Of a DNA stretch of 64,000 nucleotides, positions 30,053-62,221 are shown one piece after another. Each line of letters starts with the position of its first letter. Position 1 is the stretch's first letter. Under the pieces are notes generated by a model. The model ran no database searches. It was not told the DNA's origin and was given only the letters and a program-made list of their open reading frames with translations. The translations under genes were made by a program, and so were the position numbers. The stretch comes from Cornus controversa (lineage: Eukaryota; Streptophyta; Magnoliopsida; Cornales; Cornaceae), in assembly GCA_026545225.1 (NCBI GenBank), contig CM048849.1, forward strand, positions 13,523,541-13,587,540, written 5' to 3'.

Positions 30053-30053
30053 T

Positions 30054-30120: not shown

Positions 30121-30247
30121 TTTATAGCTAATTATTTACCACTGCATTCAATAAGAGAACCTGGATAACCTGATCTTTCTAGCATCGATGGATAGCTTTC
30201 TTGATAAGCATCTGCACCGACATATGCAAATTACAAAAGTTTCTAAA

Positions 30248-32350
30248 TTACAATTTGTTGAGCATGACTTGAAGTTCATGTTGAGGCTGGAGATTGAGAA
30301 TCTGAACTGGCGAGTGGACATAAGTCGGAGAAATGGTGATCTTGTAGCGTTACAGAATCATCGAGAGTGTTATCTTGGCTTCAGTTGTTGCGAAGTTCAA
30401 GCCCACATAGGTTCGAGGTCCATAACCGAATGGCAAAAATGCCACAATGTTGTCATTGGTTGCCTTAGCCACCCCTTCTGCAAATCTCTCTGGTTTGAAG
30501 AGATGAGCATCTTGTCCCCACAGTTCAGGGTTACTATGAAATGCCCCAGGTGGAATATGCACCTCTATGTTAGCTGGAAGAATTAGCATCCCCAATTTGA
30601 CTTCCCTTTCAATTCTTCTACCAAGAATAGCAATCGGTGCATAAAGCCTCAGAGTTTCATTAATGATCATGTTCATCTAGACATAAATAATGGGGGAAGT
30701 TAGATGTCAAATGTAGTAAAATCTACCACATAGATAAGTAAAATCTAAAACTAAAAGTTTGATTTGCTTACAGTCTTTAGTCTCGCAATGCCTTCTGGGA
30801 TTGGATTTTCTTTGCCAAACAATTCTAGGACTTCATTCCTTGCTTTCTCTTGCCATTCCATGTGGGTTGCTCAAAGAAGAATGTTCCAAGCAAGTAAGCT
30901 AGTAGTTGTTTCCTGTCCAGCAAGATAGAATGTCTTGCACTCATCAATTCTATCATCTACTGAAATCCTCCTGCTCTTGTCAACATCATGGTGAACTTTT
31001 ATAAGCAATCCAAGAAAATCACTCCCATAGTTTTCTGCTTACCTGCCATCACCTTATCTTCGCGTTTCTTTATAAGTTCTATAATATAATTTCTAATTGC
31101 TTGTTCTGTTTTGTCTGCTTCAATGTCATCATTTGACATTCTGCAAAAATTGGACTTGATTAGTGTGGATGAGTTATATTAAATATTAAGTTGTTAAATT
31201 TGGTGCCATGGTTAGAGACTCAGAGTCGATGTTAGATCAACTAATGAAGCTTGTAAATAATCATGGCCTATGAATATAAGACAAGGGGGAAAACAACTAG
31301 CCTCTCATAGATGTAATATTCATGAAATATTAATTAATATGTTAAATGGAAATTGCTTTAAAATGAAGGGGATGATAGAAGAGAGAACCTGCCCAATGCC
31401 AGGAAACCGTATTTTAAACATATTTCTGAAATGAATCAATTCCAATATATTCAACATCTCAAATATGTTCTTCCCCTCCAAGTAACTACTTCCAAAAGCT
31501 GTCTTTGAAATTATTTCTGATGTCAAAACTTTGAACTCATCGTAGACCTCAATCTCCTTACTTTCGTGGTGCCTCCATTTTCCTAGCATCATTTCCACAC
31601 TCGTGATCATTGATGGAATCATACTCTGTATAGATAGGAAGGCAACTATTTGATATTATTATCATGGATATATGCTTTATTATGCTAAGTAAATAGTTCA
31701 AGAAAAGAAATAATATTTTACCTTCAAGCCCTTTGCATGGAAAGCGTGGTTGGCAAGTTTGTGTTGCTTCAACCATTTTTCACCTTCTGATGCAACAAGC
31801 CTATGTCCTACTAGCTTCTTCAGGTAGCCTTCCATCTTTTTTTTTTCGGTATGCTCCATCTTTATTATTCAGGATCTCTTTAATCAGCTCAGGTTCAGTA
31901 ATAACCAATTGAGGTTGAGGACCATGCCAGTTTAGAAAATTCTTCCCTATTTTAGTAGATTAGTTAAAACGAAAAAAATAATTAGTTTTTGACAATTGAT
32001 TTGGATTAAGACAATTATAATTTAGTTGTGGACTATGGCTAATAACTTGTTATAATTACCATATATCTTGATCCATGAATAAGTGTGAGGCATAGTTTTG
32101 GAAAATATGTGATCATGATGTGATAAATCGACGGGATTGCTTGTGGAATCCATTCCCATCTTGATGATCTCTTTGGTGTTTCCATGGAGAAACTTGTAAG
32201 AAGGACCTTTGATTCCTTGCGATGTGCCATGATATATTGTATGCGAATTGGAGTCCACCATACCTTGTGGAGGAACCACAAGAGAGTGAAAAGGAGGGAA
32301 AGGTAGAGACAACTTGAAAGGAAGGTTATCATGGCTCCAAGCACAATCAC
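30248..32350 (-). pseudogene. CYP749-like cytochrome P450 pseudogene
   Basis: Nearly full-length P450 on the minus strand, with introns retained. Exon 1 (about 32350-32039) encodes an N-terminal membrane anchor, then FLHKVWWTPIRIQ, with a frameshift before GIKGPSYKFLHGNTKE. Exon 2 (about 31945-31717) contains NFLNWHGPQPQLV. Exon 3 (about 31622-31390) contains FGSSYLEGKNIFEM. Exon 4 (about 31140-30770) has the I-helix AGQETTTSLLAWN, with stops and frameshifts. Exon 5 (30676-30248) has the K-helix ETLR, PERF and the heme region PFGYGPRTYVGLNFA. The heme-ligand Cys of FxxGxRxCxG is Tyr. A stop interrupts the C-terminal LSMIL*RYK, and the end is TAA at 30248-30250. The sequence resembles the CYP72-clan family CYP749 from memory. 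It cannot make an active enzyme. Confidence 0.85.
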
Positions 32351-33649
32351 ACAGCCTTGTGTTCTTGAACAATTAATAGATTTTCATTCAAGCTAGTTGT
32401 TACATTCTTGAGTAATATATATAAATTGCTTAGGAATCAATTGGTTGAAGTAGGTAACAAAAACTACATGCTATGTTTCTTGCGTAAGAAGCAATGAAAA
32501 CGACATGACAGTGATGAAATTTTTGGCATTTCTTACATTGTCAGCTCTTAGTATATATATAATCTTCCAGTGATGGAATTTGGGAATTTTTGGAATACCA
32601 ATAAGCATATAAGAGATTTGGTCTCATAGCCATTTACCATACTTTTCCAAACCAAACCTCCTGGATTAATGAGCATGGAAAGCAAGATCATATGCACATA
32701 AACATATACAAGTTTGCTACATTCATTAGTGGTGATTTTCACATTTCTCCTAGTCTAGATCAATGTGGTGATATACTGAATGTCATCAGTGTAGTTCATA
32801 TCATCAGTGGAGAAGGTTATTCTTCCTGCTCTACATTTGGAAAAATCCAAAATGGTTTTGGAGCCAAGTTGTGACATTTGTCTCCAGATTCATTGGACAG
32901 ACTACAGAAATTAATGGTTCATTTTTTGTGGAGAAAAAAATAGAAAGAAAAGAAAAACGCGTGCACATGCTCAAAACAAGAAGAAAAAGATCAAGATGAA
33001 ATGGAGACAACATCATAACATTTTGAACTCGTTTCCTTGTATATTTGGAGTTTGGTTTCAGCTAAATTGATTGTGCTATTGGTGACAATACAACATCCAT
33101 CTGTATATAAATAGTCATACATATTGCTTCAACCCGTTTGTAGGGGATAAAGACAAGGATGATGATAATGATGATGTATATATGTCCATTGCAATGACAT
33201 CAGAGTTTAATTAATTACTATGTAGTTGGAAAAGGGATTGAATAAAGTTCAATCCTATTTTGGCAATGATGGTGTGAAAAGATCATGAGCAATGTCTTGT
33301 TTATGCCTCTATGGTACTGGTAATTTGTTAAAGAAAATATCGATTTGTTTGCTACAACTAGTAAAAGTGCAACCTATTTAAAATCTCACTTCAATGAATA
33401 CCAACAGCTTGGTGGTGAAGTGTTTCAATTGTTGTACAAAAGATTTGGTCTCATAGAAGTTTAAACTCCATACCTATTTTACAGACCTGGCCTGCCTGAT
33501 ATAACCCTGGAAAATTGGACCACAACCCTCTAATTTTTATACATATTTTTGTTTGGCTTGTTTGTAGATGACAATCATAGAAGAAAAAATGAAGTTTTTT
33601 GTTTGGGTTGTTCGTAGATGACATATCATATATGAAAAAAATGAAGTGT
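32351..33649. other. Gene-free stretch downstream of the P450 start
   Basis: Presumed P450 promoter region and beyond, AT-rich. A tandem pair of about 50 bp lies at 33547-33645 (TTTGTTTGG.TTGTT.GTAGATGACA). No coding exon was recognised. Confidence 0.5.
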
Positions 33650-33760
33650 ACGAATGAGCATCAATAGTTAGAAGTTAACCTAAGGACCATACAACGTCTA
33701 GACTCTAAACAAAGTACCAAACTTTTACTTCTTCCAGTAATTACAAGTAATAGAACATTA
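33650..33760 (+). repeat. Duplicated segment, half A2
   Basis: GAATGAGCATCAATAGTTAG onward through CCAGTAATTACAA matches 35224-35322, continuing the copy broken at 30120. Confidence 0.75.
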
Positions 33761-34199
33761 CTTTGGCCTTAAATCACAATTTATAGGAAGGATTACTATT
33801 TCTTGGTTGATTTCAAATTTTCCCAAATTGATTTGAATCTTGAAAATTATGGATGGAAAAGAAACAGATATGTGGCTAATTTCACCTTATAATGCAATAT
33901 AAAACAAAACATATAAATTATTTTCTGAGCAACCCTCTGAAGTTTTTGGGTTACTTCAGGGAAAGGCTGGTCCTAGAATTGTGTTTCTCAGTAAAGTTTT
34001 TTTCCCTGGTAAATACTGCTCCTGGAAATGTTGAAACCTCATACAGAAGTAGTACCTCAGAGAATGCAAAGAAGTACACTGCAGGATCAAGAAGCAGAAA
34101 TCAAAGATAAGCATAACTTAGATGTAAAATTTCCCAATTTATTTGAATATTTTTTAAAAAATTCTACTCCAAATCCATGAGCAATCAGAAGGAATTTTT

Positions 34200-34560
34200 A
34201 ATGTCCAAAAGTTTTCTGCGTAATAAGATGCTTCTTAACCCAATCAACCCAAATGGAATCAGACTGGAATTGAACAACCTTCCAAAGATGCTTAGACATT
34301 GCTGCCACATTCCACACTAATAAATCTTTAACACCCAGCCCTCCTTCAAATGTTGGTTAACAAATGTTTCTCAAGAAATTTTATTTCCCCTTCACTTAAA
34401 GTAGAGCCTTTCCACAAAAAAATTTCTGTGCAGAGCTAATATTTCCTTCATAATAGGTTTAGGAAGTATAAAGGTAAAGGCCCAATATACCTGAACAATG
34501 GATGATCTGTATGCTGCACTCTTCACAATCTAGCTAATAATCTGTTCAGCCTCTGTAGTT
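34200..34560 (-). pseudogene. LINE reverse-transcriptase remnant
   Basis: The minus-strand translation shows the C-terminal part of a plant LINE/RT-like protein: ILPKPIMKEI, then FFVWKGS, then GGLGVKDLLVWNVAAMSKHL and DSIWVDWVKKHLI. Stops and frameshifts separate the blocks. No 3' poly(A) tail or TSD was identified, so the extent is approximate. Confidence 0.65.
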
Positions 34561-35170
34561 TTTTGAATGAATATTGGTAACATAGGGGTTCTATCATCTT
34601 AGTGAAGTTCTTTCTAGTTACTTAGATTTTCATGATTACTTCATGTGGTTCCTAAACTTGTCTTCATACTTGAATCCAGTGCTTATAAATTGGAGCTAGA
34701 GTCTAATTATCCCCAAGGTTCTCTTCGTTTCTAGTAATGATTTGCTTCATAATATTGAACATGAGTGATCTGGAATGTTATCCCCAACCCATAAATTCAT
34801 CTTTTTCCTATGAAGAGATAAACATGATGAATTAAATAGATATAAGTTGGCAGGCAAGTAAAGACTAATGCCACTATTCAACAAAGTTGGAAATACCCCC
34901 TTCTTGTTGTGTTTTAACCATTAGTAAATAAACAGAAAACATAGCATGTGCAATGCATGTGATAGCATGAAAAGTAAAATCATAAGATTGATTGCATTTT
35001 TCATTGACAAAATGTTCCTGGAGAAAAGACCACCAGATTAGCATTCTTGGATCCATATAATGACCTGTTTAATATATATATATGGGTGGAAAACACCATA
35101 TTATCCTTTTATCCAAGACCCAAACGAAACTCCCTTCTTGATCAATGTTGCTTCCCTCAACAAGTCTGAG

Positions 35171-35330
35171 GCTTTTTAAAGATTAATTTATTTTTAAAAA
35201 TAAATAGATTAGACTTCATAGAATGAATGAGCATCAATAGTTAGAAGCTAACCTAAGGAACATAACGCTGTCTAGACTCTAAACAAAGTACCAGAACTTT
35301 TAATTTTTCCAGTAATTACAAATTAAATGA
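35171..35330 (+). repeat. Duplicated segment, uninterrupted copy B
   Basis: One continuous block homologous to 30054-30120 followed by 33650-33760. It shows what the locus looks like without the intervening 3.5 kb that contains the P450. Confidence 0.75.
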
Positions 35331-35395
35331 TTCAAATAATTTGATGTCTTTTGTTATAGAAAAAAAAACTTGAAGCTGACTAAAATGTCCACCTT

Positions 35396-35951
35396 TCATG
35401 CTTCACTGCTGTTAGCTCCAGGCATTGTCAAGGTAGCGAAAGACCACCTGTATGGCATAGTTTCTAAACAGGAACCAAAACAAGGATCATGAATACGTAA
35501 TACCATGAAGAAGAAAGAAAAGAAGTAAAACTACAAGCATGATATTTGTTCAGAAAATAAATTGAAGTTTATAGACAATTTTAAAGATGGTTTCTATCTT
35601 GTTCTAATCTACTTACATTGACCCAAATGTTAGGTGGATTATTTACCAACTAGAACCACAGAAGAAAATAAGGTGCACATTTACAAATTTCTCACCAAGA
35701 TGTAAAAGTGAATCTCAAAGGTATCCAGTTTGCATTGCTCGGAAGTTTTGCATGCTGCAACTACTAAGGTTTAGGAATTTATACATAAAGGGAAAGAACA
35801 TCATGTTAGAGAGAGTAACTCTTTCGCTTATTTCCCTGTTAACTTGAAAAGGCCTCTTGAGAGTGCAAATAAACCAGCAACTGGCCACCACAAGCTACAG
35901 CCAAAGGACCCGACCTTGAATCATCAGTAGCAATACACGAGACACAAGCAT
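35396..35951 (-). pseudogene. Two exons of an unidentified plant gene
   Basis: On the minus strand, exon 35951-35844 is preceded by a pyrimidine tract and CAG and followed by GTTAAC. It encodes ACVSCIATDDSRSGPLAVAC then GGQLLVYLHSQEAFS, of the kind found in WD-repeat proteins. A second exon-like block, 35463-35396, follows TTTAG and encodes TMPYRWSFATLTMPGANSSE then A and a TGA stop, a plausible last exon. The gene was not identified. Spacing and shared strand suggest both come from one captured gene. Confidence 0.5.
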
Positions 35952-36411
35952 CTGATATCAGAAGAATATTAGAGAGAAATCAGGATTTTTCTAATCTCAG
36001 CAATCCATGCATTATCTAAACCACACCCCAACATACAAATTCACAACTTATGTTAACCCTTCAAGTCTAAAGTGGTATTTTTACAGCATTGCTCCAACTA
36101 TTCAGATGGCAAATTAAATCTTGACAATAAGGGTGGTTAATTTTGTAGGATGAAGTGTGCATCGTTATCAATGTGTCATTAAGCTTACTACAACTCCAGG
36201 CAAAATATTACTGAACCATATTGTTGGGGAAGCTTTCTCATATGTACAGTAGCATGATTTAAAGAAAACTTCCATAACATTCCCTAAACCAATTCCCTTC
36301 CAAATAGCAACAGGTTTCCAAGACAGTGAAATGTAGAATGTTTTATATCTGTTGATTTTGGTTTGATACTTTTTAACTATTAACTGGAAAGAAATCAAAT
36401 TCGTCATCAAG

Positions 36412-36604
36412 GGTTTCAATGATGCTGTTAATGGATTTATGGATGATGGTAGGTTGATTATGGGTAGTGATGGTGGGGAGGATGTGACCATTGCCATCAA
36501 TTCATCTCCAAGCAAATTTCTTGGGTGGCAATACAACACATTAGTTGTCAATGCTTCCAACTTTTGGAGGGGTGCTGTGTGCAAAGGCATCAATGCTACT
36601 TCAG
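36412..36604 (+). pseudogene. Class III HD-ZIP transcription factor fragment
   Basis: An exon-like block after AAG encodes GFNDAVNGFMDDGRLIMGSD then GGEDVTIAINSSPSKFLG. After a +1 frameshift near 36570 it continues VLCAKASMLLQ. This is the conserved stretch following the START domain in REVOLUTA/PHABULOSA-type proteins (family form GFNDAINGF.DDGWS and GVLCAKASMLLQNVPPA). The WS after DDG is changed to RL, and the middle segment is diverged. No homeodomain, zipper or MEKHLA exons were found nearby, so it is an isolated piece. The miR165/166 target region of these genes lies elsewhere and is not present. Confidence 0.82.
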
Positions 36605-37632
36605 TTACTTCAAGAAAACTGAATTGGTTATGTAGGACCCATTTACGATGAAAGACAAAAAAAACATAGACTTTATAGTGGTTAGGATTATCTTTGGCTG
36701 GCTCCCCACTAGTTTAATTTTATTTTTTCTTCTCAAATATATGATCTTGATCACCTGCTTAATTTTTAAATTATATTTTAGAGATAGTAAATTTTCTACT
36801 AGTGGAGTATAATATCAATATCCATCCATATTTTTTTCAGGCCTGGATAAATTTTGCTGAACTCAAATGGGAATTTCAGCTGGCATGGGCTCAAGTATAT
36901 CAAGGTCACTTCTCAATGTTTTCATCCTTATAACAATAGCATGTTGTTTGAGTTTGCTGAGGGGGACCTTGTTTATTTTTGTACAAGTCAAATTTGCTTT
37001 AAAGTGTGTTTCATCTCTCTCTCATATTTTGTTTGGAGGTTATTTTTTTGTTTCCAGTATCTATTACCATTGACTTCTACATGCTGATTTAGTAGGTCCT
37101 TTAGCTTTTATTGGAACATATTTATTAATTTTGCTGTATCCCAGATGATTTTGCGTGTATTAGATATGTGGAAAACATAAGCTTTTATTTTGTTTCGATA
37201 CTATTTCTTGTTTCCAGATTACTTTTATTTTCTAGATTTTGATTCAATAGGTTTCATTTTTTGGTTGAAATGTGTACATCCTTCTCATTTTTCTACATAC
37301 AGTTTTTATGAATCTGAGAATTTTGAGTCCTATTCTTGGAATTACAGTAATTATATGCACTTTTTGCTTAAGCTATTCTCGACAAATCATAAGCTGAACT
37401 TTTTAGTTACCTCATATTCTTCTGTTTATTTTGTACCATAATTATTTTTTTATTAAAATGTTAGAAAATGCAGAACTCTTAGCAATTTAGCATGAGAGAT
37501 GAATCATGTTGAAAATCTAAAAAAAAGAAAAGAAAATTGGACTGATTATCACTCATCGATTTTCTTTTGACTTTTCAACTTCTTTTGAATTTCTCTAATG
37601 ACTCTTGAAGTTGAAACTTGGATTGACTACAG
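36605..37632. other. Spacer between captured fragments
   Basis: AT-rich. A possible small exon at 36841-36903 is preceded by TTTTTTTCAG, followed by GTCACT, and reads AWINFAELKWEFQLAWAQVY. It could not be assigned to a family. Otherwise nothing is recognised. Confidence 0.3.
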
Positions 37633-37706
37633 GTCAATCATGTGCTGGATTTGATAGTTCATAGTCTTTATAACCACAAGGAGGTGTTTCTTCAAGAGCT
37701 TGTGAG
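37633..37706 (+). pseudogene. Single exon of an HSP90 gene
   Basis: A 74-bp exon with CAG before it and GTAAGA after it. It encodes VNHVLDLIVHSLYNHKEVFL then QELV and two bases of a Ser codon, as expected for the N-terminal ATP-binding domain of HSP90 (family form SRLLDLIVHSLYSHKEVFLR then ELVSNASD, organellar type). The phase-2 exon end fits the S of SNASD. The catalytic Glu-Asn region is only half covered. Neighbouring HSP90 exons were not found, so this is an isolated fragment. Confidence 0.8.
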
Positions 37707-40529
37707 GTAAGAATAGGTGTAAGAATAGGTGTATTCTGTATGCCATGCATAAGAATTATTTATTTTGTTATATAACACCCAAGTATATTTCAGTTCTGAT
37801 TTAGCTTTCATGGCCCTACTTTAACCAATTTGCATATGATATATGTGTTTAGCTTCCGTTTTAGCTTGTGATTCTGTCGCTATATTTTCCATGCATATTT
37901 TTGCTTTTCGTAGTCTCTATTTTGCATTTTTATTGCAGCTATTATGCGATTAGATGGCTATAAATTTTGTTATTGAGTTGCAGTTGATATTTCTTTTCTT
38001 ATTCTCCAAATGTTAGTTTATAGTTTCTATAGGTGGTTGTGAGGCATACATTTGGGTTTGAGTGTTATATTTTGGTTAGTTCATAGTTTTTAAAAAGTGC
38101 ATGTCCTGCCATTTTCATAAAATAATGATGGCCACAATAGACAACACTTACATTCCTTATATAGGACTTTAGTTCAGAACCATTGAAAACATTTATTCTA
38201 AACATTACACAGGTGACAAGAATATAGATCAAATTCTATGTTTAGTAGTACTATATTTTTGGGAACTAATTCTAGAATTGGTGGCCATTAGAAGTCATTC
38301 CATACAGATCACTTCTCTAGACAATGTGAGTTTTCGTGGAACATATAATTTGCCTACATGTTCCTGTGTGAAGGTGCCTCATAAATCATAACTTATTGCT
38401 ACAATAGCTGATCTTTTTCAGTTATCTTGTCTGTGATTTCCCATTGCTAATCATCTTTGTGGTTTAGGCCAATTGTTTCCAAGTAAAAAGAGCCAAATGT
38501 TTTAGTAACTCGATGGTCTAGTATAGTTCTCTTTCTTTCAGTCGCTTGTGATGGATATGGATATTATTGTTATGGTGTTTTCATGCTACCATGCAAGAAC
38601 AGTTGGTGCTAATTATGTTAGGGCCTGGTGGCTATTTGTTGTAAGAGGTTTGCTAGCAACAGTTGTGTCCGTGACTGTTGCTGGCCAGTCGCACTTCTCA
38701 TTGGGCGACTAGCCCAAGTCAGTGACAAAATGCCCATCAACATGTTAATATTCAGATTTTGTGAAAGGGTGTCCAAAATATGTAACCCCAAACCATTTAA
38801 GAAAGTAAATTAAGTTCAATGTGGATGCAATAGAATCTTGGGATATATATAAGTGACTTATTGTCACTTTTATTTTCTTTTTCATGTTGTAGTCATCTTT
38901 GAAACGCAACCCTAATGGCCTCAATTGAGTCTGTAGTGATAATGATGGTCTTAGATATAAAGTTTCTGGGTTAGGTTTTCTGCACATGGTGTATATATAT
39001 ATATATATATGGAGCTTTGTATCATGCATTAGAGTGCGCAATTAATTTTGTTATACCATACCTAACAAAAATGATTACGTTTCACATATGGATAATTATG
39101 TGCAACAGATTAGCAAGGTCTCAGTCACATGTGAAAGGGTCATGCAATTGTGACTTGCCTGAATCTGTCATGAAAGAGCAAGCGTACCTTTTCTCATGGC
39201 GTAATATCGGGGCTTGTCTCATGATACATTCCTTTACTTTCTGGAAAATATAATATATATATATATATATTATTCAAATTGAGAAAGATAATATATTTTA
39301 AATACCTAACTGCAACTAAGGAGCTAATTCTCAAAGTCTATTTTAAATACAAACTTACATGAGTTACTAACTTGAAGCCTTTAGACTCAAAGCTTAAGCA
39401 ACTCCACATAGATGGCAATACAAATAACCACCCACGTTATAAAGATTCCATCTCTTACATCGACCTCTCTAGAGTACATGTAAGTAAACATATGATTAAT
39501 GGATATATATATCATTTTGTCATACTAAATATAATTTTGTTTTTCTGTCAAAGAACTCTCACAATATTTATGGAGGGACTTAAACTCTCTTTCACTTTAA
39601 AATGAGAGCATATATCACTAGATCATAAATCTTGATCACAATTCACCAACATGCTATCAAATTATTTAAGTGATTATAGTTGGGCAAGTTAGGTACTTAA
39701 TCAAAAATGATTTAAAATATGCCTAAAACTTGGACAATATAATAAAGGAGTACACGTCTAGCTTCAAAGTTATTTTAATCGAACTAATTTTAAATTCATC
39801 ATTACCAATGTTGTATCATTGTGTTACAATATCTACGCTATTAATTGAAAATTGTTTATCTCCAAGAGTTGTAGCTCAATGGTATGTATTTATTCCATGC
39901 GTGAGTTGTTTTCAAAATAAAAATAAAATAAAATTTTGTTTGTGCATCGTTTAACAACATGATGCAATGAGAAAAATAAAATAAAATAATTTAAAATTTT
40001 AAAGTAATATATGTATTGAATGTTACTACCCATGGCAGAATTAGTGTAATCGTGCTAGGCATGTCTTGAGTTAACTTGGTTTATGTAATGTGTGAGCTCA
40101 TAGGCCATGTGAAGTAAGTTATTCCACATCCATGTCTAATCAGGTAGTTGTGATTAATTAATGTTAATTAGATTAAGTTGAGCAGGATAGAGTAGGTGAG
40201 CTAAACATTAATTTCCTTCAATTTTCTCTCCTAGATTTCTTTGTAATATTGAGATAGATTAAGGCAATTACGACAAGAACTTAAGTTACATCTATGAATG
40301 CTCATAGGTAGGAAGAAGACAGTAACTAAAAGCCTAGTGAATTCTAAAATAACTGGATTGGTCACATGTTGGGTGATCATTAATTGTTTGGCTCCATTGT
40401 GGTTTGACATTTTTTTTTCCAGTTTATCTGGGATGTGGGGGGTTAACACCTCTCTCTCAGGACTTAGGAGGGTAGGAAGTGTGGGACTCTAATCCTACGA
40501 TAAAGACTAGAGATGTCAAAGGGGTGAAT
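37707..40529. other. Gene-free interior of the CACTA element
   Basis: AT-rich with (AT)n tracts at 38993-39012 and 39249-39270. Open frames are short and composition-driven. No domain or exon could be supported. Confidence 0.45.
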
Positions 40530-40670
40530 CTTTTTTGCATAGAAAGCGCTGGTAAAAGATAAGTTTCACCAACGCACGAAAGAAAGGGTTGGTAAAAGAT
40601 AAGTTTCAACAATGCACAGAAACAAAGTGTTAGTAGATAAGTTTTACCGGTGCATAAAAAATGAGTGATG
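40530..40670. repeat. Tandem palindromic repeat GCTGGTAAAAG...CACCAACGC
   Basis: About three and a half units of roughly 45 bp, each GC.TGGTAAAAGATAAGTTT followed by CACCAACGC or a variant, so each unit is an imperfect inverted repeat. The array is interrupted by the Athila element and continues with CACTGGTAAAAGG at 50868-50882. Its style resembles CACTA subterminal repeats of another family. Confidence 0.6.
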
Positions 40671-40675
40671 TGGTC

Positions 40676-42084: not shown

Positions 42085-42098
42085 CACCCCCAAACTTA
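42085..42098 (-). promoter_or_regulatory. Athila polypurine tract
   Basis: On the minus strand AAGTTTGGGGGTG abuts the LTR. A second copy of the motif, with the typical upstream AACATTGAGGACAATGTTGC, lies at about 43169-43207, roughly 1.1 kb further inside. Confidence 0.75.
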
Positions 42099-46150: not shown

Positions 46151-46311
46151 ATAGTCAGCTTGAGTTATGCTTCAGGGACTTGGATATTTGGGAATTAGAT
46201 ACTACATTGCTTAGATACAAACCTACTTTGGATTAAAGGGACATCATGGAAGCATGATAGCTACCATGGCTTCGCCACCTTACACGTCTATGGCGCGACG
46301 TCCGGATCGAC

Positions 46312-49420: not shown

Positions 49421-49439
49421 GTCCCCGGTAACGGCGCCA
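49421..49439 (-). promoter_or_regulatory. Athila primer binding site
   Basis: Read on the minus strand as TGGCGCCGTTACCGGGGAC, six bases from the LTR end. It closely resembles the Athila PBS usually attributed to tRNA-Asp, and it fixes the element's orientation. Confidence 0.88.
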
Positions 49440-49445
49440 AAATTT

Positions 49446-50862: not shown

Positions 50863-50867
50863 ATGAG

Positions 50868-51145
50868 CACTGGTAAAAGGTAAAATTTATAGCTGGAATA
50901 TTTGCTCGTACCATATTTTGCCAATTAAACCACTTACGCTCATTTAGTGCTAAGTGACTCTCTCATTGAGTTTGTCAATTTTCAGAAATGGTTTCCTTTT
51001 TCAATTTTTTGTCAGAATTTTTTCACCATGTTCATCAAGCCACAATCGATATATTTTTATCGAACATTGTACCATTGATATCCTAATTTTCATTTGAATA
51101 TTTTCTAGTGTTTTGAAAATTAATTCTTAAATTTCTATTTTGCAG
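50868..51145. other. CACTA interior after the Athila insertion
   Basis: Continues the repeat array cut at 40670, then AT-rich intron-like sequence leading to a TTTTGCAG acceptor. No gene. Confidence 0.5.
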
Positions 51146-51221
51146 GAGGAATTGATAGAAGAACTCAAACCGCTATTTGATTATAGTCGTGTTCAATCTC
51201 TCGACATTGTATGCCTCGATG
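51146..51221 (+). pseudogene. Lone exon of an unidentified plant gene
   Basis: A 76-bp block with TTTTGCAG before and GTTAGT after. It encodes EELIEELKPLFDYSRVQSLD then IVCLD and one base. It reads as a genuine exon and is unlike CACTA transposases. The gene was not identified. Probably captured. Confidence 0.5.
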
Positions 51222-51889
51222 GTTAGTTCTTATTTATCTCACATCTCTCTCTATGTACACACGTATATGTACACTTTTTGTTTATGTGTGTGATTTTTGG
51301 TTTTCAATTTCTTCTATCTCTGTTTTTCCTTTTCAATTTTTCAAATGATTTTTAATTTTCATTGGGAATTCCAGTCATAAATTGTTGAAGCTTTTTTCTC
51401 TTTAATGTATTAACTAATACCATTTTTATATAATAAATTTTTGCTTACCAACTTTTGACTATAGCTTTCTTATTTTACTTTATAAGTTATAGTTTTCACT
51501 TTGATAATAGGTTTGTATGCTTTAATTTTTCATAGAACTAGTTATCTAGAAGTGAATTATATATGTGGTAGTTTCCAAAGAGTTCAGTTAGGCAGTGAAT
51601 TGAACTGTCCATATTGTTTTCTCTATGCAATTTCGAGCTGATATTTTCCTTGGAGGATTTTTTCTACTCCCTACATTTTGTCATTTGCTTCACGATGAAC
51701 CTTGTTTAGGTTTATTGGTCACTTTTACTAGTAGTTGCATATTGTTGAATAAATTAGCAAGGAGATATGGATAAAGGCTGGATGTACCTTCATAACAGGT
51801 TATTGTAACCTAAATAACCTTACCCATAACAATTTAGACATTATACCTATCATTCTTGTCATAATGAAAATTTGACTTTCTGATTGTAG
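51222..51889. other. Intron-like spacer before the transposase
   Basis: AT-rich, with no coding exon recognised. It ends in TTGTAG, the acceptor of the first tnp2 exon. Confidence 0.5.
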
Positions 51890-54800
51890 AGCTTCAACGA
51901 AGTATTTAAATGGAGCACGTAGATTTGCCAGTTGGGCCCAACGTAATGCATGGAATCCAGCTAAGATTATATGCCCCTGTAAACATTGTTTAAACTCACA
52001 ATATCAACATTTTAATATGGTGTACGAGCAATTAGTGATAAATGGAATGGATTCTGCTTATACTGTATGGGCCTTTCATGGAGAAAATCGGATTACATAT
52101 GTAGAAAATAAAGGCACTGAAGATGGTGTGGAAATGCCTAAAATGTATGGCATGTTTAGAGATGTGTATTTTGATGGTGAAGAAAACGCTACAACAGATC
52201 CCACTTATGGAAGTTGGAAAAGGCTGAAACTCCTCTATATCCTAATTGCATGAAGTATACAATTATGTCAGCAACAGTTGCTTCATATAAGCATAAAGTT
52301 GCTCATAATATATTAGATACTGGATTTGATGAGCTTCTTAAGATTATTCGTGATATGCTTTCGATAGATAATAACCTTCCTGAGGGGATCAATGCAACAA
52401 AGAAGTTATTGAAGATATTTGACTTGAGGTATGAAAAAATCCATGCGTGTATCAATGATTGTTGTCTTTGTAGAAAAGAAAATGATAATATGATTGCATG
52501 CCCAAAATGTGGTGCTTCATAGTGGAAAGTGAATGAACATAGTAAAAAAATTCAAAATGGGATTCCGACTAAGGTGTTGTGATACTTTAAATGAAAAGGC
52601 TGAACAAGTATTATGGCATTCGACTCATAAAAGTCGTGATAAAAAAATGCAGCATCCAGTTGATTCATGTGTTGGGAATTGATTGATAAAAAGTGGTTGA
52701 GTTTTGCATCAGATCCTCGAAATTTGAGGCTTGGCCTTGCAACCGATGGATTCAATCCATTCGGTGACCTTAGCTCTAAACATAGTTGTTGGCCTATAAT
52801 TTTAGTGGTATATAATTTTGCCCCGTTGCTTTGTATGTCTAAAGAGAATATGATGTTGACGTTGTTAATCTCAGGACCAAAGCGACCAGGAAATGACATT
52901 GATGTGTATTTGGAGCCATTACTGGAAGATTTAAAAGTGCTATGGGAAAAAGGTGTTGAGCTCTATGATTCATTCACTAAATCCTTGTTTAATTTGAGGG
53001 TGGTTTTGATGTGGACAATCAATGATCTTCCGGCCTATTCTAATTTGTCTGGCCAGGCAACAAAAGGTAAGTTTGGTTGTCCAATGTGTGTTAAAGACAC
53101 ATATTCTGAATGGTTGAAATCTAGTGGGAAGACTGTGTTTAGGGGTACTCGGCGATTTCTTCCATTTAATCACCCATATAGAAAGAAGAAAACTTGGTTT
53201 AATGGAAAAGAAGAAATGAAGGGGCCACCTAGAGTATTAGCAGGTTCAGAAATTTTTTGCGGCATTAAGGATTTTCAAAATACATGGGGAAAAAGTAAAA
53301 ATCAAGAAAAAAGTAAAAAGCGCAAGAAGGAAGAGAAACTTAACATTTGGCCATGGAAGAAAAAGTCTATATTTTTTGAGTTACCATTTTGGGAGGTACA
53401 CAATTTGAATTCACCTATATCTTCGGTGGTCATTTTTTTTTTATTTCAGGAGTTCACACTCCTTACTAATAATTCTTTTTGCTTGTTATGTTAGGCGTTA
53501 CTTCTCCGACACAATTTGGATGTGATGCACATTGAAAAAAATATTTGTGAGAGTATTTTTGGCACATTATTGAATATAAAGGGAAAATCAAAGGATGGAC
53601 TAAAGTCTCGTATGGATTTGAAGCAAATGGGCATTAGGGGAGATTTGCACCCAAAGGAGTTGGGGAAAAAAATTACTTGCCACCAGCACCATATACATTT
53701 TCGAAGAAAGAGAAGCAATCATTTTGTAAAAGGTTACAACAGTTGAAGTTACCTGATGGTTATAGTTCAAATATTGGGCAACGTGTATCATTGGATGAGT
53801 GCAAAATTAGTGGCCTAAAATCTCATGATTGTCATGTTCTTATGCAACAATTGCTGCCTATAGCTTTACGAGGGACACTGCCAAAAGGTCAGAGGATTGC
53901 TGTATTTCGCCTATGTGAGTATTTTCATGAAATATGCCAAAGGGTGATTGATAGAAATCAATTGGAAAAAATTGAAAATGAAATTGTCGAAACTTTATGT
54001 ATGTTTGAAAGGTTCTTCCCACCGTCTTTCTTCGACATTATGGTACACGTTACCATTCATATTGCACGAGAAGCTCGTTTATGTGGACCAGTACAATTTC
54101 GTTGGATGTAATACCCCGCTCCAACACATGGTATGATATTGTCCGCTTTGGGCCTGAGCCCGCACGATTTTGCTCTTGGATTTTACTCCAAAAGGCCTCA
54201 TACCATTTGAAGAGAACATACTACATATAAGCACATCCCCTTGTCCACACCCAGGCGATGTGGGATTAAGCACCCTGTACCCTGTCAGTGTGATAGCTCA
54301 GCCCAGTGTCTATCTTCGCACCCACCCACTCACACCCGTCCACAAGGGTTACTACAATCCACCCCCCTACGAGGCCCGACGTCCTTGTCAGCACAATTTT
54401 GGCTGGGTTCAGGCTCTGATACCAACTGTAATACCCCGCTCCAACATATGGTATGATATTGTCCGCTTTGGGCCTGAGCCCGCAAGGTTTTGCTCTTGGA
54501 TTTTACTCTAAAATGCCTTATACCATTTGAAGAGAACATAGTACATATAAGCACATCCCCTTTTTCACACCCAGGCAATATGGGATTGAGCACCCTGTAC
54601 CCTGTTAGTGTGGTAGCTCAGCCCAGTGTCTGTCTTCACCACCCGCTCACTCACACCCGTCCACAAGGGTTACTACATTGGATGTACCCATTTGAGAGGT
54701 AATTTATTTATAACATTCTTCTATATATGTTATGCAATTACAAATATTAGTTAATTTACATATATATAATTCTATCGTTATATTCAGGATGATGAAAGTT

Positions 54801-55861
54801 TATAAAGGATATGTTAAAAATTGAGCAAGACCTGAGGGATGCATAGCAGAAAAGTACTTGGTAGAAGAGTGCATTCAATTTTGTAGTGAGCACATGAAAC
54901 AAGTCGCTGAAATTGGTGTTCGTCATTCTCGAAATGAAGATATTGAAACTGAAACAATGGAAGGAGGACGCCCACTTTCTAAGGGAATTTCAAAAACCAT
55001 GTCTAGTGACATGTTAGCCATTGCTCACCGTTACGTACTATTCAACAATGAGGAGGTGGAACCATATTTAAAGTAAGATGGTACAAAAAAATTTTAATTT
55101 ATAACTATTATTGAAAAATAAAATACTTTACCATGTTATTTTCTTATCAGAAAACATGTGGAGGAACTCAAGGGTTTGGACAGTTGTCTTGCAAGGAATG
55201 AAAGCACTCTACAAAAGAAACACATGGAGACCTTCAGTTCATGATTCAAAACCATAATTAATGCAAGTTGTAATGTGTCAATGACACTAAAGGGGCTTTC
55301 AAATGGGCATAGGAATGATGTAATTTCTTATTCTGGTTATATTGTGAATGGCCATCGATTTCACACCAAGGATGTCGAGAGAAGCACACAAAATAGTGGT
55401 GTTTCCATTGAAGCTGAAACTATATGTCGATCTAGTGCAAGTGACACAAATCAAGTTGCTGAAAAAATATCTTACTATGGTGTTCTGAAAGATATAATTT
55501 TGTTAGACTACTACTCATTTCAAGTACCGTTGTTTCATTATGACTGGGAAAATATTAGAAACGACATCAAAGTTGAAGATGGATTTATATTGGTGAACGT
55601 TCATGAAGGTCAAAGTCAGTTTGAAAGTGATCCATTTATCCTTGCATCACAAGCTAAGCAAGTGTTTTATTCTAGGGATATTGAAACGTCAAGTTGGTAT
55701 GTGGTACTTAAAATACCACCAAGAGGCAAAATTGACTTGGACACTTTTGAAGAGAATGCTTATATGCCTTATGCTCCATTAGATATATCAAGACTTGAAT
55801 GTGAAATTGTTGATGATGGCGAACATCATGTACGAGTTGATTGTGAGGGCATATCATTGTA
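51890..55861 (+). pseudogene. CACTA transposase (tnp2 / TNPD-like) pseudogene
   Basis: Catalyses cut-and-paste transposition in En/Spm elements. The first visible exon gives STKYLNGARRFASWA and IICPCKHCLN, the transposase-associated domain. After a frameshift near 52240 comes CLCRKENDNMIACPKCGAS, then stops to about 52670. The tnp2 core follows: LRLGLATDGFNPFGDLS, LPAYSNLSGQATKGKFGCPM and, after an intron (about 53395-53496), HNLDVMHIEKNICESIFGTL. A frameshift near 53680 leads to ISGLKSHDCHVLMQQLLPIA and FFPPSFFDIMVHVTIHIA, the DUF4218-type part. This is interrupted by a TRIM at 54107-54677, then YPFER, intron, MMKVYKGYVKN and a stop. The last exons hold a DUF4216-like region (YYGVLKDIILLDYYSF, DPFILASQAKQVFYSRDIET). 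Multiple stops and frameshifts make it dead. Confidence 0.9.
54107..54677 (-). mobile_element. TRIM retrotransposon inside the tnp2 exon
   Basis: Terminal-repeat retrotransposon in miniature, 571 bp: LTRs 54107-54356 and 54427-54677 (TGTAATACCCCG through TTACTACA) with a 70-bp interior. TTGGA at 54102-54106 and 54678-54682 is the TSD. On the minus strand the interior starts two bases after an LTR with TGGTATCAGAGC (54413-54424), an initiator tRNA-Met PBS, and ends with the polypurine tract GTAGGGGGGTGGAT (54357-54370). It has no coding capacity, as usual for TRIMs. It splits a Trp-Met-Tyr stretch of the transposase. Confidence 0.9.
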
Positions 55862-56110
55862 AAATATTTTCAAATGGGTATTTGGTTACTTGGTTATATT
55901 TTTTGGTTTGTATTTGGTTACTTGTAGAATATTTTTTGATGAAATTAAATGGTTATGATTATATACCTATCTAAATTTGCGTCAAATTCCTTCTTAAACT
56001 GTTAATATGTTGTTTCTGGTGCTCTTTTTGTAAATCAATAGTGGCGCCTCCAATATAAACTGAATTATTACTCCTTTGATAAGATTACAGGTCATCTAAA
56101 GTTTTTTACT

Positions 56111-58309
56111 ATGTCTGAACATCCTGAAGTAAGTATCAACCTTACTTAATATTGTTTTATCTTAAATTGTTTGTTTTGATTTAAGTATCAACTTTAAACA
56201 TGTGCATTTTTAATGTTCTTCTTCTTTTAATGCATGTACTTGAATGAAGTCATCTAGATAGTGTGAGAAACGTGCAAAATGAAATCGTCGAGCAGCTATG
56301 GCTGCAATGATACGTACACCCTCAGTTGTACGCATTTCTGACGGGGGTTCAAATTCTCCAAGGACACCTTCAGGTGATCAATTTAGAGTTGGTGGGGTTT
56401 CACCCGATCCCGTTACTTCTCAAGGACCTTCCATTGAGGCTACATCAAATACAAAGAAAAGAAAGGGTAGGGGAAAGTCTCAAATGTACAAGATTGCATC
56501 CACACCAAATGAGCGTCTAGTTGTGGATTTTAATGAAAGGGGGCAGCCAATTGGTGATAATAGTAAGAAGTATAGTTCTTGCGTTGGGGTTCTAGCACGT
56601 GAGAGTGTTCCCATAACAATTAAGAGCTGGAAGGATGTGCCTGATTCTCTATTACAAGAATTATGGAATATTATAAAGGTAATTTTTTTTTACTAATTTG
56701 CTAGTAGAAGGATGTGTCTGATTCTCTATTAGAAAAATAAAAACATGTTCTCTCTATGATAGTAGGATATTTATTTGATAATTTGCAGCTAAGATTCGAT
56801 GTTGCCAACTGTCATGCAAGTGTCTCATTTGGATTGATGGGAAAGGCGTGGCGCAATCACAAATCAAATATAACAAATAATGTGTTGTCCATGAGAAATA
56901 ATTGACGAGCCATTGCCTTAATGAAGCCCGATAATGTGGATGAGTGGCAAGAGTTTGTTGCCAATCGATTATTGGAGGAGCATACTGTGAGTATTTATAT
57001 GCACTTTTTAATTATATATATATATATATATATATTTTCATGACCTATATAAATTAGCAACTTTTTGTTATTTACAAAAAGAAAGAAAACAAAAACAAGA
57101 ATTGAGGAGCAAAATAACTACCCTACACACAACAAGCCGATTAGGCTATGCTCGATTAGAAGATGCAATGGTAATAATGAATGTTTATTTTCTTCACTTA
57201 TTTAATGCTAACCATAGTTCTTGTGATTTAGTAGCACAAATAATTGAAACATGCATGTTTGGGTATGTAGAGAAAAGAGTCTGACATGCCCGATAACATT
57301 TCAAGGGTGGATGTGTGGATTAAAGCGCAAATGAGAAAGGATGGTCAGCCCATAAATGAACAAGTCAAGGATACTGTGGTAACATGCTTCTTTTTTAATT
57401 TAAGTTAATCATTTATATTTATTATATTAAATTACTAATGAGTGTGCTTAAAATATGGAATTTTAGGAAATAACTAAGACATATTCCCAAATGACTCAAA
57501 GTTCAGAAATTCATGATGATGCGATCAATCATGTATTTGGTTCTGAACATCGCGGAAGAGTGAGAGGGCTTGGGTTTGGGGTAACACTAACAAAATTGAA
57601 AACCCAAGCACAACAACAAGAAATTTCCCAAAGATATGAAAAGAAATTTGAAGCAATGATGCGGGACCAAAAGGAGCGAATGTTGGAAGCAATGCAACTC
57701 AAAAGGGAGAAAATGAGGGAAGATATAAGGGAGGAAATGATAGAGCAAATGAGGGAAGAGATGAGGGACCAAATGAGGGAAGAGATGAGGGAACAAATGC
57801 AAGAGTTTAGATCATTGTTGGTAAGTGAAAATAAGAATGTATTGTCATCATTTCTATTAAAAATGCTTTGTCATAATTATTTTTCTTTTTTTTCATGCCA
57901 GACACAGAATGGTAATAACCAATCTTGTCCCAATGCTTCACCACGTGTCCCATCTACTGAAAATGTTGAAAGAAAAGATTGCGAGTTATTCCATTACAAT
58001 GGGACAGGATTACTTGTTGCTACTGGTGAAGTTGTTTCCTCGGATCCTTCTACGCTCATAGGTGATGCACCACTCGGTTCTGATTGTTGGAAAGTGTGGG
58101 TCAATTTTATCTTTGAATCCGAAGCTCCCTTGTATAGGGCAGATCCCTCTGGCCGTTATTTGCTTGGGCAAGCTCATGGAAATTCAATTGCATGGCCTAG
58201 CAAGTTTATCAAGATCAGTAAGTATCCCAAAGTATAATATTCTTATATCTAATTCCATTGATACTAAAAATATAATATTTATTTACTTGCAGCTTGGCCT
58301 TCGGGATAA
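56111..58309 (+). pseudogene. CACTA TNPA-like protein (Ptta/En/Spm family) pseudogene
   Basis: The regulatory DNA-binding partner of the CACTA transposase. Exon 1 (56111-56128) encodes MSEHPE with donor GTAAGT. Exon 2 resumes near 56263 (CEKRAK, stop, NRRAAMAAMIRTP), then IASTPNERLVVDFNERGQPI and WKDVPDSLLQELWNIIK. Exon 3 (from 56789) has LMGKAWRNHKSNITN, a stop, and VDEWQEFVANRLLEEH. Small exons near 57085-57170 (TSRLGYARLEDAM) and 57265-57378 (DVWIKAQMRKDGQP) follow. The next exon, to about 57822, has a heptad-like MREEMRDQMREEM region, probably a coiled coil. Then come DPSTLIGDAPLGSD and the C-terminal exon join (donor at 58218, acceptor CAG at 58290-58292), ending WPSG and TAA. At least two in-frame stops disable it. 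Confidence 0.85.
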
Positions 58310-59990
58310 TGGTATTTTGGGGCTGTGCTTGTTTTTGTGGTTGTATCTTTATAGGAGATATATAGAATTTTTGAAAGCAATCTGTTAAGGGCGTGTTTGG
58401 TTCTTTTGTTACTGAAGAAATTTTAAGGAAGAAGAAGAAGAAATTATTCAGATGGAGTGGTCTTCCTATGTAGTGAATAGCTCCATAAACTAGGAGAGGT
58501 ACTTCTTGAATTCTCTCTCTAATTTCTTCAATAGTCACTGTTAGCTCTCAGCATTTCTATTGCTATCATTTTGTATTAATTTGTATGACTATCTCATTGA
58601 GCTTTCAATAAATAGCTAATGCATCGAATGACATACCTTTGTCAGAATCTTGACAATATTGAGTTAATTTGTAAGGTTGGCAAATTGCTAAGCCGTTGGA
58701 TATATTTCTTTTTTTGTATAAATTAATCATATATGAGTTTTTGATAGAGTTAGTGACCATAGCTTAGGTTCAAGTGTTAGTGATCAACAACTTAGGCTAT
58801 AAAAAGTAGCTAACTGTCCATTAGCAGTCACAAGATATAGATCTTGGCATTCAGATCATCCCATTTGGAGCCAATTATCACTAGATTGTCAATATTGTTA
58901 TTAGGAAATCTGCTTCATGCTACTGTGACTTGAGTTCTGGAGATTTGCTTGGCTATTTTGACATTTTTTAAAACCAAAAGAGATTATGGTAGGTGTGGTG
59001 ATGATCAGTGTATTTGGCGGGTGGATTGGGAGAAATCAGATAATTATGTGTTGTAGTTTTGCTGGCCATAAAGATTGGCTTAGAAAAAAATTGTAGTTTT
59101 ACTTACAATGTTGCTTATAATCTTTCTCATTATTTCTTGTTTCAATTTGGCTTTCTTGAATTCGCATCGCTCTCTATTTGCAATCTATCATTCTCACTCA
59201 ATTTTCACTTAAATTTGAATATTCTCTCTTACACCTAAATTTGTATCTCTCTAGAATCTCCATGTGATCTTCACTTTTCTTCATCTTTCTATTTGCCTTC
59301 TTGGTCATTCGAAGTGAGTTTTGTATTATGGGTACATTGTAGTAAATATTAACCAAAAATGATTCAAATAAAACTATAGAAGTTTGCATGTGTTTTAAAT
59401 AGATGCTAGTCAATATTGCCTACCTTATGACATATGGTTAACTGGATCCCAATTCAGGTCATGCCCAGGTCCATGTGAGCTGCATGGCACATCAATCTTG
59501 CTTTAGTTCCCCTCTAGCAAGCATGAAGAGTGCAACTAGTTAAACACCAAGGATTTTATTGCCTTGTAAAACCCGGAGCGAATTGATATTTGTCACATAG
59601 CTTAGGAAGTCTGCTATTGACAACCATGATACTTAAAGAAGAAATCAAGATTTACAAATATGAGGAGAATTTAATCAAATAACTAAAAGTAACCAACACT
59701 CATGCAAACTATGATTGCAACATGTGCTTAAGAGGTCATATAAGAGAAATTGAGAGAGTTGGTCGATAAAAAAGAAAAAGAAAAAGAAAAAAAGCACTAC
59801 CTAGTTTTCGTCACGGCAATGCAAGGTCCTGGGGAGGGAGGACTTGAGACAAACATAACCTTTTATGATTATTTTTGTTCATAAACTATAGTTCTAAGAA
59901 TACTTTGATTTTGCCTTTTAAGAACACATGTTATTAGTCCTGTGAAGAGTATCCAACTCCTGTAATTCGCACATAAATTAAGTGGGTATT
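58310..59990. other. Spacer between TNPA and the PPR pseudogene
   Basis: AT-rich, including (AAG)n near 58426-58443 and (AAAAAG)n near 59769-59793. No coding feature is supported; the last few hundred bases are probably the captured PPR gene's own upstream region. Confidence 0.45.
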
Positions 59991-62221
59991 ATGAAAGCTC
60001 TATTGCCTAAAAAATCTAACATAATTCACATAATACCCTTTTGCTCAAATCCAGCTTCACTCAAACTAGTTCATAGTTTGTACCACCAAACCTCATCATC
60101 ATCAGCATATCTCTCTCCTACCCATCTTAACACTCCCCTAAACAATGCCATACAAATCAGGAACAGCAAACATGCCTCCCAAATTCACACCCAAATCATC
60201 ACCAACAACTACATGTCCCTCCCTTTCCTTTTCAACAGACTCATCAGCTTGTATGCCAAATGGGGGCATATCAATCAGAGCCTCACATTGTTCTGAACCA
60301 CCTATGATAAGTCCAAGAATGTTGTCACTTGGACCTCTCTTATCACCCAGTTATCTCATTACAACAAACCACTTTAAGCCTTGAATTTCTTTAGCTAAAT
60401 GAGAAGCACTAGTGTGTATCCAAACCAATTCACCTTCTCTGCTGTCCTACCCGCTTGCTCAGACACCATGATTGTTGTTCACGCCGAACAGATGCATTCT
60501 TTAGTTTGTAAACATGGGTTGGAACTTGACATATTTGTTGGTAGTGCATTGGTCAATATGTATGCCAAGTGTTCTAATATGGGTTCTGCCGAGAGAGTAT
60601 TTGATGAAATGCCTGAAAGAAACCTTGTTTCTTGGAATTCTTTGATAGTTGGGTCTTTGCTAAGCAAGTTGTATGATCGAGCGGTTGGATTATTTAAAGA
60701 GGTTCTGGGAGAGACATCTATATCCCCTGACCAAGTAAGTTTTTCTAGTGCATTGAGTGCTTGTGCTAACATAGGTGGCGTGGATTTTGGTAGACAAGTT
60801 CATGGAGTTGTTGTTAAGTATGGTTTGATTACCTTAGCTTATGTGAACAATTCACTTATGGACATGTATGGTAAATGTGGGTTCTTTGAAGATGCTGTTA
60901 AGTTGTTTCAGACTATAGGAGATAAAGATGTTGTTAGATGGAACATCATGGTAATGGGGTGTGTCCGAAATGACGACTTTGAAGAGGCTTGCAATTACTT
61001 TTCGGTCATGAGAAGTGAAGGCATTTCACCTGATGAAGCCTCATTCTCTATTGTCCTTCATGCTGCTGCTAATCTCACAGCATTAGATCAGGGCACTTTG
61101 ATTCATGATCAGATAATAAAAACTGGGTTTGAGATAAATATTTGTGTTGCAAGCTCATTGATTACAATGTATGCTAAATGTGGGAGCTTGACTGATGCTC
61201 GTTGGATATTTGAAGAGAGTGAGGATCAGAATGTGGTATCTTGGACAGCCATGATTTCAGCTTGCCAACAGCATGGCTGTGCAAACCAAGTAATAGAATT
61301 ATTTGAGGATACGCTGGAAGAGGGGATTAAGCCTGATTATATAACTTTGGTTTCTGTTATGTCGGCTTGCAGCCATACTGGACGTGTTGATGATGGATTT
61401 GCTTATTTCAATTCCATGACTGAAATGCATCATATAAACCCTGGTTCTAAACACTACTTTTGCATGGTTGACTTGTTTGGTCGTGCAGGTGAATTGGATG
61501 AAGCTAAAAAGTTTATAGAATCAATGCCATTAGACCCGACGCATCTGTGTGGGGAGCTTTGCTTGGGGCTTACAGAAATTATGGAAATCTTGAAATAGGT
61601 AGAGAAGCTACAGATAGGCTCTTTGAAATTAAACCTGATAATCTTGGAAATTATGTGCTGCTATGTAACATGTATGCATCTAGTGGAAGGTTGGAGGAAG
61701 CTATTGAAGTTAGGAGAATGATGAGGGTCAATGGGGTAAGGAAGGAGTTTGGATGCAGCTGGATTGATGTTAAGAATGAGACCTTCATTTTTACAGCACA
61801 TGACATATCACATTCTAGGTCCAATGAAATATATGAGATGCTAGGAAAATTGGAGGAGTTGGTAAAGAAGAAAGAATATGTGGCTGAAACCCAATTTGCA
61901 ATTAACAATGTGGAAGAGTACAAGGAGCGGAGCTTATGGTATCACAGTGAAAAACTGGCTCTTGCATTTGGGCTACTGACCCTCCTTGTTGGGGCTCCAA
62001 TTAGGATAAAAAAGAACCTGAGGATTTGTGGTGATTGTTATACAGTTATGAAGTTTGCTTCAAAGATTTTTAAGAGAGAGATTATTGTGAGGGATATCAA
62101 TTGGTTTCACCGATTTGCTAATGGTTTGTGCTCATGCGGAGATTATTTAAGCAAGCTCAGAAGATATGTTATCTATGCTTTTGTAATTTCTATTATAGGG
62201 AAGCTAGGGTCCTTATTGTAG
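59991..62221 (+). pseudogene. PPR-DYW protein pseudogene, nearly complete
   Basis: PLS-class pentatricopeptide proteins with a DYW domain edit C to U in organelle RNA. The first true ATG is at 59991 (MKALLPKKSN); there are no introns. An organelle-type N-terminus is followed by PPR units such as NQFTFSAVLPAC, FVGSALVNMYAKCSNMGSAE, NLVSWNSLIVG and ICVASSLITMYAKCGSLTDA, then E motifs and the DYW domain with HSEKLALAFGLL (the HxE zinc-site region) and CGDC. In-frame stops occur at 60294, 60375 and 60396, and a frameshift near 61535 separates PLDP from DASVWGALLG. The C-terminus reads CSCGDYL and runs on 23 codons; loss of two bases from DYW plus stop would explain this. CGDCH, usual in the family, is CGDCY. 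Non-functional. Confidence 0.88.

Follow-up and report, generated by a model that had tools for sequence, protein, structure and literature searches.

Host gene segments gained at the DNA level by ancestors of a CACTA transposon in Cornus controversa

Gene capture by CACTA elements is established, from reports on Tgm-Express1 (PMC1947982), Tpn1 (PMC5105172), Cactavine-5 (PMC2528002) and elements of Chenopodium (PMC8978399). The subject here is a 34,718-bp CACTA element of Cornus controversa that lies within a window of 64,000 nucleotides (C5:13523541–13587540; C5 is contig CM048849.1 of assembly GCA_026545225.1, a genome of 772 Mb in 61 contigs). Tgm-Express1 of soybean is described, like the window element, as a CACTA transposon with fragments of several unrelated host genes that keep their exons and introns. 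At 5.7 kb, however, it is reported to hold five fragments, to sit inside a flower-colour gene, and to give rise to demonstrated chimeric transcripts (PMC1947982), whereas the window element measures 34.7 kb and has transposase genes, siblings and an empty acceptor site. The Tpn1 family of Ipomoea nil resembles it in its CACTA ends, its 3-bp target-site duplication (TSD), its captured genic regions and its size, up to 40.6 kb; the gene-carrying members characterized in that account are non-autonomous, with the interior replaced, whereas here transposase genes stand beside the cargo (PMC5105172).

In Cactavine-5 of grapevine, as in the window element, a piece of a PPR gene lies downstream of the transposase, but the report describes this one gene only, and in the opposite orientation to the transposase rather than the same one (PMC2528002). 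The Chenopodium elements, likewise transposase-bearing and with gene fragments upstream of the transposase, are described with fragments down to 80 bp and with captured genes in the 5' region only, whereas the window element has cargo on both sides (PMC8978399). The reading that we favor for the window resembles the gap-filling/FoSTeST model of animal Pack-TIR elements, which as presented invokes an internal break, template switching at microhomologies, and transposition for the multicopy cases; that model was described for animal elements, and what we have here are serial captures in a plant CACTA family (PMC8277862). A limited check, of titles and abstract openings, of the literature on CACTA microhomology, gene capture, gap repair and template switching found no plant CACTA case in which donor, product and empty acceptor are found together.

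The element spans positions 28654–63371 of the window. The motif CACTACAAGAAA occurs exactly (0-mismatch search) at these two positions only, mutually inverted, and TAA flanks both ends as a 3-bp TSD. What supports the ends is this exact inverted pair, together with the TSD and the sibling copies, and not a looser scan (2 mismatches), in which 14 motifs were found against 9.7 expected, a number reached by 12 of 100 shuffles and hence no excess over chance. Subterminal repeats occur at both ends (the right arrays found by Tandem Repeats Finder, the left by eye and by self-comparison of sibling D, below), and both transposase types of CACTA (En/Spm, CMC) elements are present, Tnp2 (TnpD) and TnpA-type. 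By its inverted ends, 3-bp TSD, TnpD/TnpA-type proteins and subterminal repeats, this is a CACTA (En/Spm, CMC) DNA transposon.

It is not alone. A genome DNA search with window 29500–40665 returned at least 59 matches, most of them 91–99% identical (39 of 355 candidates scored), and eight of the loci listed were examined as siblings: A (C1:33.38 Mb), B (C6:12.27 Mb), C (C2:71.65 Mb), D (C5:15.84 Mb), E (C5:14.95 Mb), F (C1:42.54 Mb), G (C1:89.05 Mb) and H (C8:6.19 Mb). F is covered by a 20-kb stretch and H by 8.3 kb of sequence; no absences are claimed for H. Both ends and a 3-bp duplication were found in A, B, C, D and G, whose lengths are 19,976, 19,864, 21,376, 25,920 and 12,958 bp and whose TSDs are ATA, GTA, GAT, TTT and TGA, respectively, so that, with the TAA of the window, the TSD is 3 bp in all six copies with both ends available. 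The left end of D has one mismatch to CACTACAAGAAA, and E has lost its left terminus. D and E have a right flank in common over at least 14 bp; they are probably a single insertion that was copied along with its surroundings, and they are counted as one lineage. Copies on several contigs with differing TSDs attest to the past mobility of the family.

The first-pass annotation had described a single transposon carrying fragments of at least six unrelated plant genes, captured at the DNA level and lying beside its own transposases. All six pieces it named are present in the window sequence, and the capture of unrelated host genes by a CACTA element with transposase genes is borne out: four donors lie on three large contigs, and capture was at the DNA level, because noncoding DNA came along. 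Nucleotide search, as that annotation had proposed, placed the donors at C4:51.57 Mb (P450), C2:99.60 Mb (WD-like), C5:56.91 Mb (class III HD-ZIP) and C4:55.88 Mb (PPR-DYW). The number six needs trimming: these four captures are proven by their donors and an HSP90-type exon is a likely fifth, but the PLFDYSRVQ piece belongs to a high-copy repeat. The ends of the element and the pieces between them are as follows:

28654–30115, plus strand: left end, with terminus CACTACAAGAAA and its subterminal repeats, reaching as far as the P450 acceptor
30116–33651, minus strand: P450 capture, introns retained, with ~1.3 kb of DNA from upstream of the gene; GAAT doubled at its flanks; donor cluster at C4:51.564–51.588 Mb
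35165–35317, plus strand: internal duplicate of the P450 acceptor, unbroken, bounded on the right by the WD capture junction
35318–36315, minus strand: captured WD-like gene segment, 97.5% identical to C2:99598895–99599893, with sharp ends
36316–36723, plus strand: class III HD-ZIP capture comprising exon and intron sequence, joined to the WD piece at AGGT; 93.7% identical to C5:56908840–56909245
37630–37710, plus strand: HSP90-type exon, both splice sites (3' and 5') retained (exon 37630–37704, 25 aa; AG before, GTAAG after)
50863–51361, plus strand: PLFDYSRVQ-frame segment (frame 51131–51223), component of a high-copy repeat
59867–62145, plus strand: captured PPR-DYW gene, starting ~125 bp ahead of the ATG and ending within the last codon, a pseudogene; 95.9% identical to C4:55885482–55883199
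62146–63371, plus strand: right end, with AAGGCGG-type subterminal repeats and the inverted CACTACAAGAAA terminus

The P450 piece is the one for which an empty site survives. Pfam detects the domain (PF00067) at 30353–30676 (E 9e-24) and, below the cut-off, at 31323–31655 (E 0.0033), and DNA homology to the donor cluster extends over 30182–33649. Exon 1 and its upstream DNA (32125–33649) match C4:51574740–51573193 at 93.6%, and the body (30182–32559) matches a neighboring gene, C4:51584542–51582144, at 84.6%. The closest donor copy ends abruptly at the start of a Copia-like frame (identified by reading); the first exon is frameshifted in the window, and the identical shifted stretch is found in the donor remnant. 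Siblings D and E run unbroken through GAATGAATGAGCATC, where the window has GAATGAAT, then the P450 insert (30116–33651), and then GAATGAGCATC: no acceptor base was lost, and 4 bp, GAAT, were doubled. The internal duplicate of the acceptor is likewise uninterrupted, both in the window (35225) and in A, B, C and F. Because D/E and this duplicate are both unbroken, the empty site is taken to be ancestral. The right junction has a filler of 2 bp; the left, read against a relative of the donor, has a short filler.

The next two captures abut one another. The left junction of the WD-like segment falls inside the acceptor duplicate, where ACAA is common to acceptor, product and donor, and its other end, derived from contig C2, is fused directly to the HD-ZIP piece, derived from contig C5, at a common AGGT. 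The WD-like name comes only by way of the donor locus, in which an exon ~0.8 kb away resembles WDR41 (E 0.07, below the Pfam cut-off); Pfam gave no match for the window WD exon, nor for two exons of the HD-ZIP donor. The HD-ZIP III exon (36409–36604, plus strand) matches a REVOLUTA sequence at E 1e-16. Its donor match, 36312–36723 to C5:56908840–56909245 at 93.7%, takes in noncoding DNA to the left and right of the exon, and the donor locus has a START-domain exon (E 4.5e-12) and more REVOLUTA-like exons. A second mosaic, at C5:6240800–6242800, has HD-ZIP III exons that extend farther leftward, followed by the sequence of window 36724–36956 and then by a frame that reads like an LRR-receptor kinase.

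The PPR piece named in the first-pass annotation lies at 59982–62221 (plus strand; Pfam E 1e-42). The donor is an intact open frame of 723 codons (720 if counted from the first Met), in which PPR, E and DYW domains are recognized (DYW E 5e-38). Beyond the family, the next-best matches cover only part of the piece: 88% over 0.8 kb at C4:55.89 Mb, 86% over 0.4 kb at C5:53.40 Mb, and 72–77% at C4:55.30 Mb. TTATT is common to both sides of the right junction, and the left has a 6-bp filler; D and E have an unrelated 1.7 kb at this site instead. Over ~1.3 kb, the window and A have in common 15 differences from the donor, and therefore the PPR gene was captured once, before these two copies split. 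Since then it has decayed as an unconstrained pseudogene: the changes are spread evenly over the three codon positions (22, 27 and 29 against the donor; 17, 15 and 12 between the window and A) and are accompanied by a 1-bp deletion. Substitution rates of 1.3e-8 and 7e-9 give a rough age for the capture of ~1.4–2.6 My.

The HSP90-type exon matched a GRP94 query at E 0.001 over the window, and at about 1e-5 over the element alone; it was missed by a cytosolic HSP90 query (E 1). Protein comparison with A, B, C, D and F recovered the exon in all five, DNA comparison recovered it in E as well, and it is likely to be a fifth capture. The PLFDYSRVQ stretch, in contrast, has at least 47 matches in the genome, 40 of them long, including the window's own, and the others 87–98% alike (40 of 98 candidates scored). 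It is present in D and E and absent from A, B, C and F. As part of a repeat with 39 further long matches, it cannot be counted as a capture by the CACTA element. Some matches to the repeat lie within ~8–9 kb of other P450-bearing copies, at C8:6.20, C4:29.51 and C3:19.44 Mb.

When the pieces are tabulated across the siblings, it becomes clear that they were not gained by the window copy. The left-end module (28654–30110) is found at 91–94% in all eight, although its coverage is just 13% in F, the left part of which contains a long terminal repeat (LTR) element. The WD, HD-ZIP and HSP90 pieces are all present in six siblings, A to F. The P450 piece, whole or partial, occurs in A, B, C, F, G and H but in neither D nor E, and the right part of the PPR piece occurs in A, B, C and F (as far as covered) and is absent from D, E and G. 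Loss has removed the right part of the P450 piece and the left part of the PPR piece from A, B, C and F. The captures thus predate the window copy: pieces were gained in ancestors and are common to siblings, and because siblings share them, the window copy was not their maker. To this extent the first-pass wording, "one transposon", is not borne out. We had expected the pieces to be private to the window element, an expectation that the first genome DNA search ruled out. In the sibling-specific stretches, no gene could be named by eye from lists of open reading frames, without a Pfam search.

G has only the left end and the P450 piece in common with the window, and its right end is 71% alike; as this copy indicates, the halves of elements do get exchanged. 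The window P450 piece is nearer to those of G and H (about 97%) than to those of A, B, C and F (about 94%), and the left end shows the opposite trend (91–92% versus 93–94%). This mismatch might reflect exchange between lineages.

How were the pieces acquired? We think it probable that host segments were captured stepwise by ancestors of this CACTA (En/Spm-type) family, as filler for internal gaps, and that transposition then spread the product. A break or gap inside an element would be repaired by copying unrelated host DNA into it, with jumps between templates at short stretches that they have in common, in the manner of synthesis-dependent strand annealing, polymerase theta or fork stalling, and later deletions and further fills would cause the copies to diverge. 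Three of the six resolvable junctions share at least 4 bp (ACAA at the WD left, AGGT between WD and HD-ZIP, and TTATT at the PPR right), against 2.26% for random element junctions (binomial 2.2e-4). This test does not count the right end of the HD-ZIP piece, where the adjoining sequence has no known source. Whether the interior of the family is, more generally, a zone of repeated breaking and filling, in which serial microhomology-guided template switching leaves the flanks intact and keeps the transposase beside the cargo, we regard as an even bet.

The principal competitor, to which we give a low but real probability, is the fusion model proposed for Pack-CACTA elements of Arabidopsis and extended to other Pack-TYPE elements (PMC13317346, PMC8903248), according to which adjacent elements lose their facing ends and, as those reports present it, excise as a single hybrid that includes the host DNA between them. 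The exchanged halves of G speak for it. At the P450 site, however, where no acceptor base was lost and 4 bp were doubled, fusion would require two elements broken at the identical place, and the direct join of WD (C2) to HD-ZIP (C5) is impossible from a single host interval. Filling of gaps is preferred in view of what is seen at the junctions: 4–5-bp microhomology, short filler or, in one case, duplication of 4 bp. Somewhat less probable again is delivery of some pieces by nested insertion of another gene-carrying element, such as a Pack-MULE, a Helitron or another mosaic. The HD-ZIP piece of C5:6.24 Mb, joined to the same following sequence, longer leftward and succeeded by the kinase-like frame, speaks for this, but the donors are gene loci of the ordinary sort, matched with sharp limits, and no terminal repeats were seen by eye at the P450, WD and PPR junctions, no search having been aimed at such ends. 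That the genes are residents merely surrounded by a transposon, the outcome that the first-pass annotation had named as its refutation, or are retrocopies from RNA, we reject as highly improbable, in view of the siblings, the donors and the copied noncoding DNA. Residence is excluded for the shared pieces, since siblings that sit on different contigs and have target duplications of their own contain them too. Introns and upstream DNA are covered by the P450 match, and noncoding flanks of the exon, left and right, by the HD-ZIP match. The PPR piece, though intronless, starts upstream of its ATG and stops before the stop codon, and the lack of introns is neutral by itself since the donor is one uninterrupted frame.

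Several points weigh against stepwise gap filling all the same. The exact donor of the P450 body was not found—only exon 1 and upstream DNA reach 93.6%, the body 84.6%—which is why the left junction had to be read against the donor's relative. The D/E junction, taken alone, would fit deletion between two GAATs equally well, and only the internal duplicate argues otherwise; and with D and E probably one copied insertion, the empty-site lineage counts once. At the PPR site a clean empty state is missing, since 1.7 kb of other sequence stands there in D and E. The HD-ZIP piece may have passed through the other mosaic at C5:6.24 Mb, or that mosaic may be an older copy of the CACTA family. And the microhomology test covers only those junctions that could be resolved.

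The remainder of the element consists of the transposase region and later insertions:

40666–50862, minus strand: nested LTR retrotransposon (10,197 bp), TSD ATGAG, LTRs ~1.4 kb and 98.3% identical
51876–54110, plus strand: TnpD-type transposase, degenerate, with Transpos_assoc, Transposase_21 and the start of DUF4218 (Pfam E 1e-16, 1e-81 and 3e-21)
54111–54677, no strand assigned: 567-bp insertion with a 9-bp duplication, TTGGATGTA, inside the transposase region; site uninterrupted in A–F
55245–55862, plus strand: DUF4216 part of the transposase region (Pfam E 1e-12)
57467–58237, plus strand: Transposase_23 (TNP1/En/Spm, TnpA-type) frame (Pfam E 6e-6, above the cut-off)

The transposases said to accompany the cargo are there as domains, but in the window copy they are broken into short frames and interrupted by the 567-bp insertion. 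The first transposase frame, of 569 aa, is kept in A, C and F; in B, D and E it is split as in the window. If the window copy moves at all, it probably does so only in trans, by means of its relatives' transposase. The 567-bp insertion is mostly two 251-bp direct repeats, 92% alike, and a related piece lies beside sibling G. The LTR retrotransposon, which contains gag-like and protease-like frames, is a later arrival and no part of the gene capture: its site is empty in D and E, the stretch is missing from A, B and C, and in F a related LTR element sits at a different place. The same rates (1.3e-8 and 7e-9) put its insertion at roughly 0.7–1.2 My ago.

Elsewhere, a minus-strand frame at 34201–34356 (GGLGVKDLLVWNVAAMSKHLWKV...) looks, by its motif, like the zf-RVT end of LINE-type proteins. 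Outside the CACTA ends, to the left, are three related repeats (16992–18281, 23959–25247 and 26481–27169; 96.7% and about 77% alike) and a purine-rich tract of ~1 kb with imperfect A/G tandem units (14900–15920).

In the classification of the packFinder report, any element with a transposase match is filed as autonomous, and Pack-TYPE denotes a non-autonomous class (PMC8903248). The window element has host gene DNA between its ends, from four donors, as Pack-TYPE (Pack-CACTA) elements do, and it also has transposase domains, which they do not. It works like a Pack-CACTA but would not be filed as one.

The mechanism by which DNA transposons pick up genes is still disputed. Here a single genome preserves the P450 donor region, an element with the insert and the acceptor without it, along with partly resolved junctions for the WD, HD-ZIP and PPR pieces, and these preserved before and after states make element fusion and internal gap filling testable against one another base by base. 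A break-and-fill zone, if that is what the interior of this family is, would be a departure from the tandem insertions modelled for Pack-CACTA, and would account for cargo that comes from several genes and chromosomes. For those who annotate the C. controversa genome there is a warning, too: P450, PPR, HD-ZIP and HSP90-like exons in it can be transposon cargo.

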